A DNA stretch of 45,494 nt from Candidatus Abyssobacteria bacterium SURF_5 (lineage in GTDB: Bacteria; Abyssobacteria; SURF-5): contig QZKU01000119.1 of the NCBI GenBank assembly GCA_003598085.1, forward strand, positions 1 to 45,494. The letters are read 5' to 3'. A model generated the notes under the pieces. It did not search any database and was not told the origin of the DNA. It saw only the letters and a program-made list of their open reading frames with translations. The position numbers and the translations under genes are program-made. Shown here piece after piece: positions 26,046-32,496 of this stretch (position 1 is its first letter; the number at the start of each line of letters is the position of its first letter).

Positions 26046-27185
26046 TCATGATGCCATTTCGGAAATCGCGTCCCACGCGTTATCGATTGCCTCATTCGTT
26101 TTCAAAATGTGAAAGAGGAAGTGGCGCGTCATCGCTCCGGATTTCTCCTCGGCTTCCAGCATTTTCCAAATCGCCGTAGTCTTCATGCTTTTTGAACATG
26201 CTTCCATGACGGAGGCATCGGACGCGTCAGCATGCTGGGCCGCGTATTCCCCGAGAAATGTTCCCGCCTCATATCCCAGACTGAGACTGCTCAGGATTCC
26301 CGATCCGCCGCTCGCGCCGACCTGCCCGGCTGCATCGCCCACGAGAATCAGTCCCGGCCGCACAAAATCCTGCAGAAGACCTCCGAAGATACACCTGTCA
26401 GTACTGGTCAATACGGGGGAAGCGTTTCGCAGGCGCTCCCGCAGAACCGGGTGCTCCTCACGATGGCGTTCCCATGCCGCTCGAAGGTCGGCTTCTGTGA
26501 CGCCAGGCGATGTTTCCCAATACACGATCCCGCAGTCGGCGCAGGTCCTGCCTTTCGGAAACAGCCAAAGCGCGCCCGCCGGCTCGGTTAACAGGAAGAA
26601 CTCGAGCACGTCCTCATCCGGTATATCCGCGCCTTCGACTACGGCCTTAAAGGCGGGGCAGGCAGTGGGCGCGGCAAACCTGCTCTGCCGGCCTACTCTC
26701 GAGTTCCAGCCATCGGCTGCGATTACCGCTTTACTGGTTATATCCGCAGTCTGCCCAAGCTGAGAGCACTTTACCCCGACAACCCGCTCACGTTCATCAA
26801 GAAGCACACCCTTAACCTCTGTGTTCAACCGAAGCTCAGCGCCGGCCCCGACACAGGCTCTCGCTATCCCAAACACGAGCGGTCGGTACTCGATGATCAG
26901 GGAAGCCTCAGCCTTGTTCACCAGCATGTTTTTTTCGCAGGATGGGCTGAAGATTCGCCTGCGTTTGCTGATTCCGTGGATCATTGACCGGGGCATAGGC
27001 TGCTGTAGTATCTTCTCGATGACGGAATAATTTTGCTTGATGACCTCGCCTTTCACTTTAGAGGCCACCTCGGAGGCGGCATCGAGAACCAGAGTCGTGG
27101 CGTCCGCTCTCGCGGAAGCGACGGCTGCGGCGAGTCCGGCGACTCCCGCCCCTACAACTATCACGTCGTAATCGGACTTTTTCAT
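26046..27185 (-). CDS. FAD-dependent oxidoreductase, geranylgeranyl reductase family
   Basis: 379 residues. N-terminal YDVIVVGAGVAGLAAAVASA is a Rossmann FAD-binding motif, and ILVGDAAGQVGASGGSGILSSL is the second FAD motif of the GGR/PHBH-like group. Members reduce isoprenoid double bonds of chlorophyll, menaquinone or lipid side chains, or act as other flavin monooxygenases and reductases. The central part carries the usual RPLVFGIARACVGAGAELRLNTEV segment. Substrate identity is not visible. With three MEP genes in the window, an isoprenoid substrate would be reasonable, but the gene is not in an operon with them. ATG 27185 has a weak GAGAG upstream. It converges with the molybdopterin gene, with 75 bases between them. 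Confidence 0.87.
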   Translation of the reverse strand: MKKSDYDVIVVGAGVAGLAAAVASARADATTLVLDAASEVASKVKGEVIKQNYSVIEKILQQPMPRSMIHGISKRRRIFSPSCEKNMLVNKAEASLIIEYRPLVFGIARACVGAGAELRLNTEVKGVLLDERERVVGVKCSQLGQTADITSKAVIAADGWNSRVGRQSRFAAPTACPAFKAVVEGADIPDEDVLEFFLLTEPAGALWLFPKGRTCADCGIVYWETSPGVTEADLRAAWERHREEHPVLRERLRNASPVLTSTDRCIFGGLLQDFVRPGLILVGDAAGQVGASGGSGILSSLSLGYEAGTFLGEYAAQHADASDASVMEACSKSMKTTAIWKMLEAEEKSGAMTRHFLFHILKTNEAIDNAWDAISEMAS

Positions 27186-30952: not shown

Positions 30953-31621
30953 ATGCTCAGTGCGAAACTGGATCATAGGCTTGATAAAGTGGTCTTGCCG
31001 GTAGTCAGACTGCTTGCTCGAGCGGGCCTCACTCCCAATAATCTCACGATTGCAGGAGCTCTCACGAGCGCCGTCGCCGCGGCTGCATTGCTGTTCGGCC
31101 ACTTCCGGATCGGTGGAATCCTGATTCTCCTCGGTGGAGTGTTTGACCTCCTGGATGGTGCGCTCGCGCGGGTCGTAGGGCAGCAAACCCGATTTGGAGC
31201 GGTTTTGGACTCCACGCTCGATCGATATTCCGACGTCCTTCCCATTCTCGGACTCATGCTGTATTATTCCGGATGGACTGAAACCGGTCCTTTGCGTCTT
31301 GGCGGCATGATGTTGTGCGGCGCCGTGATTCTGGGATCGCTTCTTGTGCCGTATGTGCGCGCGCGCGCCGAGCTGATGATCGAGCGATGCGACATCGGAA
31401 TTGCGGAGCGGGCCGAACGAATTCTGATTTTGTCCGGCGGATTGGTGATAGACGCCGATATCGCGGCATTGTGGATTCTGGCGATCCTGACCCATTTCAC
31501 CGTGTTCCAGCGGCTCTGGTTCGTTCGCAAGCAGCTCAAACAAGATGAAGAGGCTCACAATCATGTCGAACGACCCAATCAACATAAACTTGCCGCTTCC
31601 GATCTTGAAGGTAAGCTTTAG
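30953..31621 (+). CDS. CDP-alcohol phosphotransferase, inositol-phosphate-synthase-like
   Basis: 222 residues with about six membrane helices. The full CDP-alcohol phosphotransferase signature is present: DG-x2-AR-x8-G-x3-D-x3-D in LDGALARVVGQQTRFG and the following AVLDSTLD. Such enzymes swap CMP on a CDP-lipid for an alcohol at the inner membrane. Later segments VPYVRARAEL and GIAERAERILIL resemble the KARAE and AERxER residues of phosphatidyl- and archaetidyl-inositol-phosphate synthases, which bind the inositol phosphate. That points to an inositol-phosphate acceptor, though PgsA-type activity remains possible. The next gene, a PfkB kinase, starts five bases after the stop. The ribosome-binding site is weak (GGGAT). 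Confidence 0.88.
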   Translation: MLSAKLDHRLDKVVLPVVRLLARAGLTPNNLTIAGALTSAVAAAALLFGHFRIGGILILLGGVFDLLDGALARVVGQQTRFGAVLDSTLDRYSDVLPILGLMLYYSGWTETGPLRLGGMMLCGAVILGSLLVPYVRARAELMIERCDIGIAERAERILILSGGLVIDADIAALWILAILTHFTVFQRLWFVRKQLKQDEEAHNHVERPNQHKLAASDLEGKL

Positions 31622-31626
31622 GTCCT

Positions 31627-32496
31627 GTGCGAGGTAATGTGGGCGTTCCTGATTTTTTGGCTGTGGGGCATTTGTGCTGCGATATCGTCGACGGCCGAAG
31701 AATACTGGGCGGATCGGCTTCATATGCGAGTTTGACCGCTCGAGGGCTGAACCGTGCGGCCGGAATCCTTACTGCCGTCGCCGAAGACTTTCCGTTCCTG
31801 CATTTGTTGAAGGGCATCAGAGTCGACATCATCGATTCGCCAACCACGACGACTTTTCGAAACATTTATCATCAAGGGGTACGCGAGCAGATCATCTGCG
31901 ATGTCGCCCGCTCCATTGGGCCCGCCGATGTTCCCGGGGAATTTACCAATGTGGATGTCGTCTACCTGTGCCCGATTGCAGATGAGATTTTGCCCGGTGT
32001 CGCCTCCCGCTTTCGCGCCTCGCTCGTTGGGGCGGGGGCGCAGGGTTGGTTTCGCCAATGGGACGAAGCCGGCCGCGTAAGCCGAAAGAAGTGGGAATCA
32101 GCGTTAGAGGTGGCGAGGGCGGTGGACGTGATTGTCTACAGTGAATTGGATACGGATGACCCTTACAAACTGGCGGAGGAACTGGCAAACCATGCTCCCG
32201 TGGTGATCGTGACTCAATCGAGCCTGGGGGCCGACCTCTATACGGAAGGCGCCAGAATACATGTTCCCGCCTTCGACGTGGAAGAAATCGATCCTACCGG
32301 CGCGGGCGATGTCTTCGCCGCGGCATTTCTGATAAATTATGAATCTTCCGGGAATGCCGTCGAGTCGGCCAAGTTCGCCTGTTGCGCCGCCTCGTTTATT
32401 TGCGAGCACGAGGGGACGGAAGGAATTCCTTCTCTTGATCAGGTTGAGGAACGGCTGCAGCAGTATTCCAGGATTTACTCCGAAAGCCTTTACTAA
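31627..32496 (+). CDS. PfkB-family kinase, possibly an inositol or sugar kinase
   Basis: 289 residues. The PfkB/ribokinase signatures are ILGGSASYAS near the N-terminus and DPTGAGDVFAAAF near residue 219, with the catalytic Asp in GAGD. The family phosphorylates sugars, nucleosides or inositol with ATP. The start DFLAVGHLCCDIV, the TTTTFRNIY segment and LCPIADEILP loosely resemble plant and archaeal myo-inositol kinases, which are PfkB members; this is from memory and not aligned. Lying five bases after an inositol-phosphate-synthase-like gene strengthens the idea. GTG 31627 is used; GTG 31639 with GAGG upstream is an alternative. The stop lies only three bases from the convergent zinc-binding gene. 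Confidence 0.85.
   Translation: MRGNVGVPDFLAVGHLCCDIVDGRRILGGSASYASLTARGLNRAAGILTAVAEDFPFLHLLKGIRVDIIDSPTTTTFRNIYHQGVREQIICDVARSIGPADVPGEFTNVDVVYLCPIADEILPGVASRFRASLVGAGAQGWFRQWDEAGRVSRKKWESALEVARAVDVIVYSELDTDDPYKLAEELANHAPVVIVTQSSLGADLYTEGARIHVPAFDVEEIDPTGAGDVFAAAFLINYESSGNAVESAKFACCAASFICEHEGTEGIPSLDQVEERLQQYSRIYSESLY

Follow-up and report, generated by a model that had tools for sequence, protein, structure and literature searches.

Our analysis of a 45,494-nucleotide stretch of DNA from Candidatus Abyssobacteria bacterium SURF_5 (hereafter the window) points to an operon-like gene pair that quite probably turns free inositol into an inositol phospholipid. The first gene encodes a predicted CDP-alcohol phosphotransferase that resembles phosphatidylinositol phosphate synthases (PIPS), and the second encodes a PfkB-family kinase assigned to the myo-inositol-kinase branch. 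The substrates, the phosphorylated position, the coupling of the two steps and the final lipid are predictions based on sequence and modeled structure. In the literature that we surveyed, bacterial routes to phosphatidylinositol lead from glucose 6-phosphate to inositol phosphate via Ino1, and our searches of the open literature returned no bacterial inositol kinase that feeds phosphatidylinositol. Each of the two enzyme classes is known. What seems new is the presence of such a kinase together with PIPS in a genome with no detectable Ino1, a combination not found in the open literature searched.

The gene pair and its conservation

The source contig (C119) is part of a 5.1 Mb draft genome (G000) that is 98.5% complete. 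An earlier note, made from the letters of the window, had described a CDP-alcohol phosphotransferase gene followed at a distance of 5 bp by a PfkB kinase gene. Both open reading frames are indeed present, on the same strand:

30953..31621, + strand: CDP-alcohol phosphotransferase of the PIPS/AIPS type (PIPS-like), 222 amino acids; from Pfam, NCBIfam and PDB profile matches
31627..32496, + strand: PfkB-family kinase of the myo-inositol-kinase branch, 289 amino acids; from Pfam, PDB profile matches and predicted fold

The gap of 5 bp corresponds to a kinase start at the GTG at 31627. An alternative in-frame GTG at 31639, with GAGG just upstream, would lengthen it to 17 bp.

The other two genomes of the family also carry the pair, with order and strand kept and ~60% identity. 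It is kept across three genera, and the upstream genes differ among them. The downstream genes (zinc-finger-like, valS, proS and ispG) are conserved too, and synteny alone is therefore not decisive. The proposal that the two genes are conserved as neighbors holds within this family of three genomes but mostly not outside it, where they usually lie apart. Adjacency as a broad rule was rejected, because a match to CDP-alcohol phosphotransferases (CDP-AP) lies nearby in only 3 of the 80 loci of the kinase scan, one of which is from the same family.

Elsewhere in the window, ~4 kb from the pair and on the opposite strand, positions 26046-27185 encode an FAD-dependent oxidoreductase. This protein has a weak, sub-cut-off match to the catalytic domain of geranylgeranyl reductase.

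The transferase resembles PIPS

The transferase matches the Pfam model CDP-OH_P_transf (4.1e-14). Its best PDB match is the M. tuberculosis (Mtb) PIPS (6h53, 6.5e-23), and the R. salmoninarum PIPS is matched at 2.4e-17, a similarity well above what chance would give. Scores lie below the curated NCBIfam cut-offs for AIPS (NF040950; 153.6 bits versus 180), actinobacterial PIPS (NF045883; 133.3 versus 170) and BT1523 (NF052561; 107.7 versus 350). Membership of these equivalogs was therefore rejected, and the enzyme is termed PIPS-like. Alignment with Mtb PIPS identifies the following elements:

31145..31225, + strand: complete CDP-AP signature, D65xxD68G69xxA72R73...G82xxxD86xxxD90, plus R91 (Mtb R94)
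31352..31420, + strand: Y134-R136-R138...R153-R156, equivalent to Mtb Y133, K135, R137, R152 and R155
31511..31513, + strand: R187, equivalent to Mtb R195, a phosphate-site arginine

In Mtb PIPS, the residues R94, K135, R137, R152, R155 and R195 line the inositol-phosphate pocket. Enzymes with inositol phosphate as substrate conserve R94, and the conserved sulfate is bound by R155 and R195 (PMC6506517). At these positions the transferase has R91, R136, R138, R153, R156 and R187, with only the conservative change of K135 to R136. The segments RARAE and GIAERAER, which the earlier note had likened to those of phosphatidyl- and archaetidylinositol-phosphate synthases, are real and contain R136 and R138, and R153 and R156, respectively. 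The pocket arginines are kept in all 22 PIPS-like relatives from other genomes. The one departure is at the phosphate site, where Mtb S132 corresponds to P133 in the transferase; proline is found here in its own family only, and serine in the other 20 relatives.

Three CDP-alcohol transferases were found in the genome, namely the PIPS-like enzyme, PgsA and PssA, and the latter two score above their NCBIfam cut-offs. Apart from isolated lysines, PgsA and PssA are without the pocket arginines, all of which are present in the PIPS-like enzyme, so the comparison with a PIPS structure proposed in the earlier note came out in its favor. Judged by these alignments, assignment of the transferase to the inositol-phosphate-type class of CDP-alcohol phosphotransferases is well supported, and the PIPS tree has little inner resolution. 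In common with known PIPS (M. tuberculosis PgsA1 and R. salmoninarum, with A. fulgidus AF2299 as a structural relative), the enzyme has the fold family, the CDP-AP signature and the inositol-phosphate arginines. It differs from the solved enzymes in being only a distant match, in having proline in place of S132, and in its apparent coupling to a kinase in place of Ino1.

The kinase belongs with inositol kinases

The kinase matches the Pfam PfkB model (PF00294) at 2.5e-17, with 63.6 bits against a gathering score of 25.8, and contains the GXGD motif (as TGAGD). NCBIfam gives generic ribokinase-type matches only. A profile of 33 relatives matches TM0415 (1.1e-24) and T. kodakarensis MI3K (3e-22) over the full length, ahead of ribokinases and all other matches, again well above chance level. 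The best nine PDB fold matches to an AlphaFold2 model of the kinase (pLDDT 95) are all TM0415 or MI3K chains, including a TM0415 mutant. The elements that bear on function are as follows:

31666..31713, + strand: G14...D19...G28-G29, equivalent to the inositol contacts D12 and G26 of MI3K (TM0415 D11); invariant in the family alignment
31855..31890, + strand: acceptor pocket F77-x-N79-x-Y81...R86-x-Q88 by alignment, with N79 equivalent to TM0415 N78 and Q88 at the position of S89
32041..32055, + strand: Q139-G-W-F-R143, equivalent to MI3K Q136/R140 and TM0415 Q141/R145; invariant in the family
32296..32310, + strand: nucleotide motif TGAGD with catalytic D228 and small A226 (ATP type, not the RXGRGD pyrophosphate type)

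In MI3K, inositol is held by D12, G26, Q136, R140 and D219 (PMC5931981). These five contacts correspond to D19, G29, Q139, R143 and D228, each invariant in the 33-member alignment, and N79 is also invariant. At the corresponding positions, neither the contact Q nor the contact R was seen in E. coli RbsK, PsuK, FruK, HldE or YihV. In a tree, the kinase family forms one group (support 100/98) that joins MI3K and TM0415 (92/87), although the reference branches are long and the join is moderate. Thus the kinase falls among the inositol kinases, as the earlier note had suspected, and is separate from E. coli ribokinase, HldE, PsuK, FruK, YihV and Gsk. The ILPGVA-like segment that had contributed to this suspicion belongs to the acceptor domain and lies beside P116, a residue invariant across the family alignment and common to both known inositol kinases. 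Sequence comparison and the predicted fold make assignment to the myo-inositol-kinase branch of PfkB enzymes well supported. In this kinase and throughout the aligned family, the NXXE motif of the PfkB metal site reads S172xxD175 (window 32140-32151).

Of the two reference enzymes, MI3K (3w4s/4xf7) has in common with the kinase a full-length profile match, a fold with a TM score of ~0.8, the five inositol contacts and the ATP-type GAGD. However, identity is ~22%, N79 and Q88 stand where MI3K has L77 and L87, and the metal motif is SxxD rather than DxxE. TM0415, the PPi-dependent myo-inositol 1-kinase of Thermotoga maritima (5ysp), is the best match in both fold and profile, with D11, N78, Q141 and R145 conserved. 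However, its PPi-donor residues K171, F221, R229, R232 and M266 are all absent, the kinase having V170, A215, P223, A226 and C259 (K171V, F221A, R229P, R232A and M266C) and the motif DPTGAGD. Pyrophosphate was rejected as the donor because all five signature residues differ, and the missing signature makes ATP the likely phosphate donor.

PIPS enzymes are thought to use D-myo-inositol 3-phosphate. In the acceptor pocket, by contrast, N79 resembles the 1-kinase TM0415, and Q88 resembles neither reference, which counts against the proposed coupling. According to the title of PDB entry 7e4l, the changes N78L/S89L convert TM0415 from a 1-kinase to a 3-kinase. An Acanthamoeba homologue with Cys and Gln at TM0415 positions 76 and 89 formed a product that was not Ins(1)P (PMC5931981).

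A proposed route from free inositol to phosphatidylinositol

The kinase would convert ATP and myo-inositol to inositol monophosphate, and the membrane transferase would then combine inositol monophosphate with CDP-diacylglycerol to give phosphatidylinositol phosphate (PIP) and CMP. A phosphatase would finally convert PIP to phosphatidylinositol; another contig of the genome carries a PgpA-type gene next to pgsA. We infer that free inositol flows into lipid by these steps.

The same lipid chemistry, via a PIP-DAG intermediate, is that of the B. thetaiotaomicron cluster BT_1522-1526, in which inositol phosphate is made by MIPS/Ino1; the five genes include no kinase, and knockouts have been characterized (PMC9246714). 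In contrast, Ino1 was not found in the genome studied here. Eukaryotic phosphatidylinositol synthase takes free inositol directly (PMC4634129). Net use of free inositol would be alike in the Abyssobacteria bacterium, but a separate kinase would activate the inositol first.

Two Pfam models for Ino1 (PF01658 and PF07994), which gave matches in 6 and 5 control genomes, gave none in the genome, a check that the earlier note had suggested, and the other two members of the family likewise yielded no Ino1. With no Ino1 found, inositol would have to be taken up or released by degradation of other inositol compounds. The possibility raised in the earlier note, namely that a PfkB kinase is coupled to a PIPS/AIPS-like enzyme in an inositol-phospholipid route, thus draws support from the pocket arginines, the grouping of the kinase, the lack of a detectable Ino1 and the conservation of the pair within the family.

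Alternative explanations

The kinase might instead act on another inositol isomer or derivative (scyllo-inositol, chiro-inositol or an inositol-derived keto sugar), for a rarer lipid headgroup or another pathway. Its closest structural relative, TM0415, has a weak Km for inositol of 12 mM, and its discoverers doubted its natural acceptor; moreover, F77, N79 and Q88 in the pocket match neither reference kinase fully. We consider this unlikely, however, because all five MI3K inositol contacts are invariant and the kinase adjoins Ino1 and PIPS genes or IPCT-DIPPS genes in separate lineages. A related idea is that the product is inositol phosphate for a non-lipid use, as a di-inositol-phosphate osmolyte or in catabolism, given that one relative precedes an IPCT-DIPPS fusion and that the TM0415 gene belongs to an inositol catabolic cluster. 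This is the least probable of the alternatives: no inositol-catabolism genes were recognized adjoining the pair, and with PgsA, PssA and the PIPS-like enzyme as the only CDP-alcohol transferases found, no other user of inositol phosphate from this class is visible in the genome.

It is very unlikely that the pairing is incidental, with a transferase that uses another alcohol (glycerol phosphate or serine) and an ordinary sugar kinase of the ribokinase type. The unmet NCBIfam cut-offs for AIPS and PIPS, the generic NCBIfam matches of the kinase, and the conserved downstream genes, which could make the synteny passive, would all fit such an arrangement. However, the genome has separate genes for PgsA and PssA, neither of which carries the arginines, the kinase differs from ribokinase-type sugar kinases in its residues, and the kinase and PIPS co-occur in 14 of 14 kinase genomes in another phylum, Bacteroidota.

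Distribution and wider role

The kinase subfamily was seen in at least Chloroflexota, Poribacteria, Bacteroidota, Atribacterota, Actinomycetota, Myxococcota and Thermodesulfobacteriota. We examined 53 genomes with the kinase: a PIPS-like match better than 1e-19 is present in 48, and Ino1 was not found in 26. The Ino1-less genomes include three Poribacteria (L046, L051 and L054) in which the kinase contig is labeled chromosome 1, which makes assembly gaps a less likely cause of the missing gene.

Co-occurrence elsewhere is stronger evidence than synteny for a link between the kinase and inositol lipid. In one Bacteroidota order, the kinase is present in 14 of 299 genomes and PIPS in 49. All 14 kinase genomes have PIPS, versus 35 of the 285 others (Fisher p = 1.8e-12, a figure that ignores shared ancestry and is inflated by it). 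These kinases are mostly 32-54% identical to one another and thus do not represent one recent clone. Ino1 is also present in 13 of the 14 genomes, so the kinase is an addition there and not a replacement.

For Chloroflexota, co-occurrence of the kinase with PIPS is uninformative and was set aside as evidence, because PIPS is nearly universal in the sample (240 of 251 genomes) with or without the kinase. There is a weak enrichment of the kinase in Ino1-less genomes (20 of 26, versus 122 of 225 others; p = 0.02 by Fisher test with ancestry ignored), with p = 0.03 in the high-quality subset. One chloroflexote genome (G303), a single contig that is 99% complete, encodes a PIPS-like enzyme, and neither Ino1 nor the kinase was found in it. 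Another source of inositol phosphate may therefore exist.

The kinase as an Ino1-independent feed, which the earlier note had proposed, thus fits its own family, in which no Ino1 was found, but not the many genomes elsewhere in which the two coexist. Because the genes are mostly unlinked elsewhere and Ino1 is frequent, the two-gene coupling stands as a local arrangement of this family, and inositol salvage describes the wider role better. In general, the kinase probably salvages inositol into inositol phospholipid and is the only visible source of inositol phosphate where Ino1 is missing. On balance, we lean toward a scheme in which this family, many Poribacteria and scattered Chloroflexota rely on scavenged inositol to make their inositol phospholipids, the ATP-dependent kinase having replaced Ino1, and in which other phyla keep the kinase as a salvage branch beside Ino1. 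If so, entry through the kinase would make environmental inositol available to a bacterium, comparable to the use of free inositol in eukaryotes. The scheme would also supply a function for an unnamed kinase subfamily of at least seven phyla, and it would predict inositol dependence in uncultured lineages.

Gene neighborhoods of related kinases

Three separate neighborhoods (L083, L009/L193 and L043) also speak for a link between the kinase and inositol lipid. In a Saprospiraceae locus (L083), the gene order is PAP2, PIPS, PAP2, Ino1, kinase, PgpA and GtrA. The B. thetaiotaomicron inositol-lipid cluster has the same genes except for the kinase and the second PAP2, so here the kinase resides inside such a cluster. 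Such clustering was rejected as a rule for Bacteroidota, because the other 13 kinase loci are without it. At L009/L193, three consecutive genes encode a transferase of the PIPS type, an inositol-type kinase that is more distant, and Ino1.

Of 13 Bacteroidota loci, 9 have a sodium:solute symporter (SGLT-type) next to the kinase, and the one such symporter compared with solved structures is close to vSGLT. SLC5 transporters include myo-inositol carriers. The arrangement fits import and subsequent phosphorylation of inositol, and sugars are equally possible as cargo.

In Atribacterota (L043), the kinase gene lies directly 5' of a fusion of inositol-phosphate cytidylyltransferase and DIPP synthase (IPCT-DIPPS). 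Close to both, this metagenome-assembled genome encodes a second, TM0415-like kinase (L043:6414-7304) that has all five PPi-donor residues. At L008/L194 (G028), a PfkB kinase that is ~28-30% identical to the family studied here is followed directly by a gene of the inositol-monophosphatase family. In many Chloroflexota loci (L041-L118), the kinase resides near yidC, jag, rnpA and parA/parB, and not near lipid genes.
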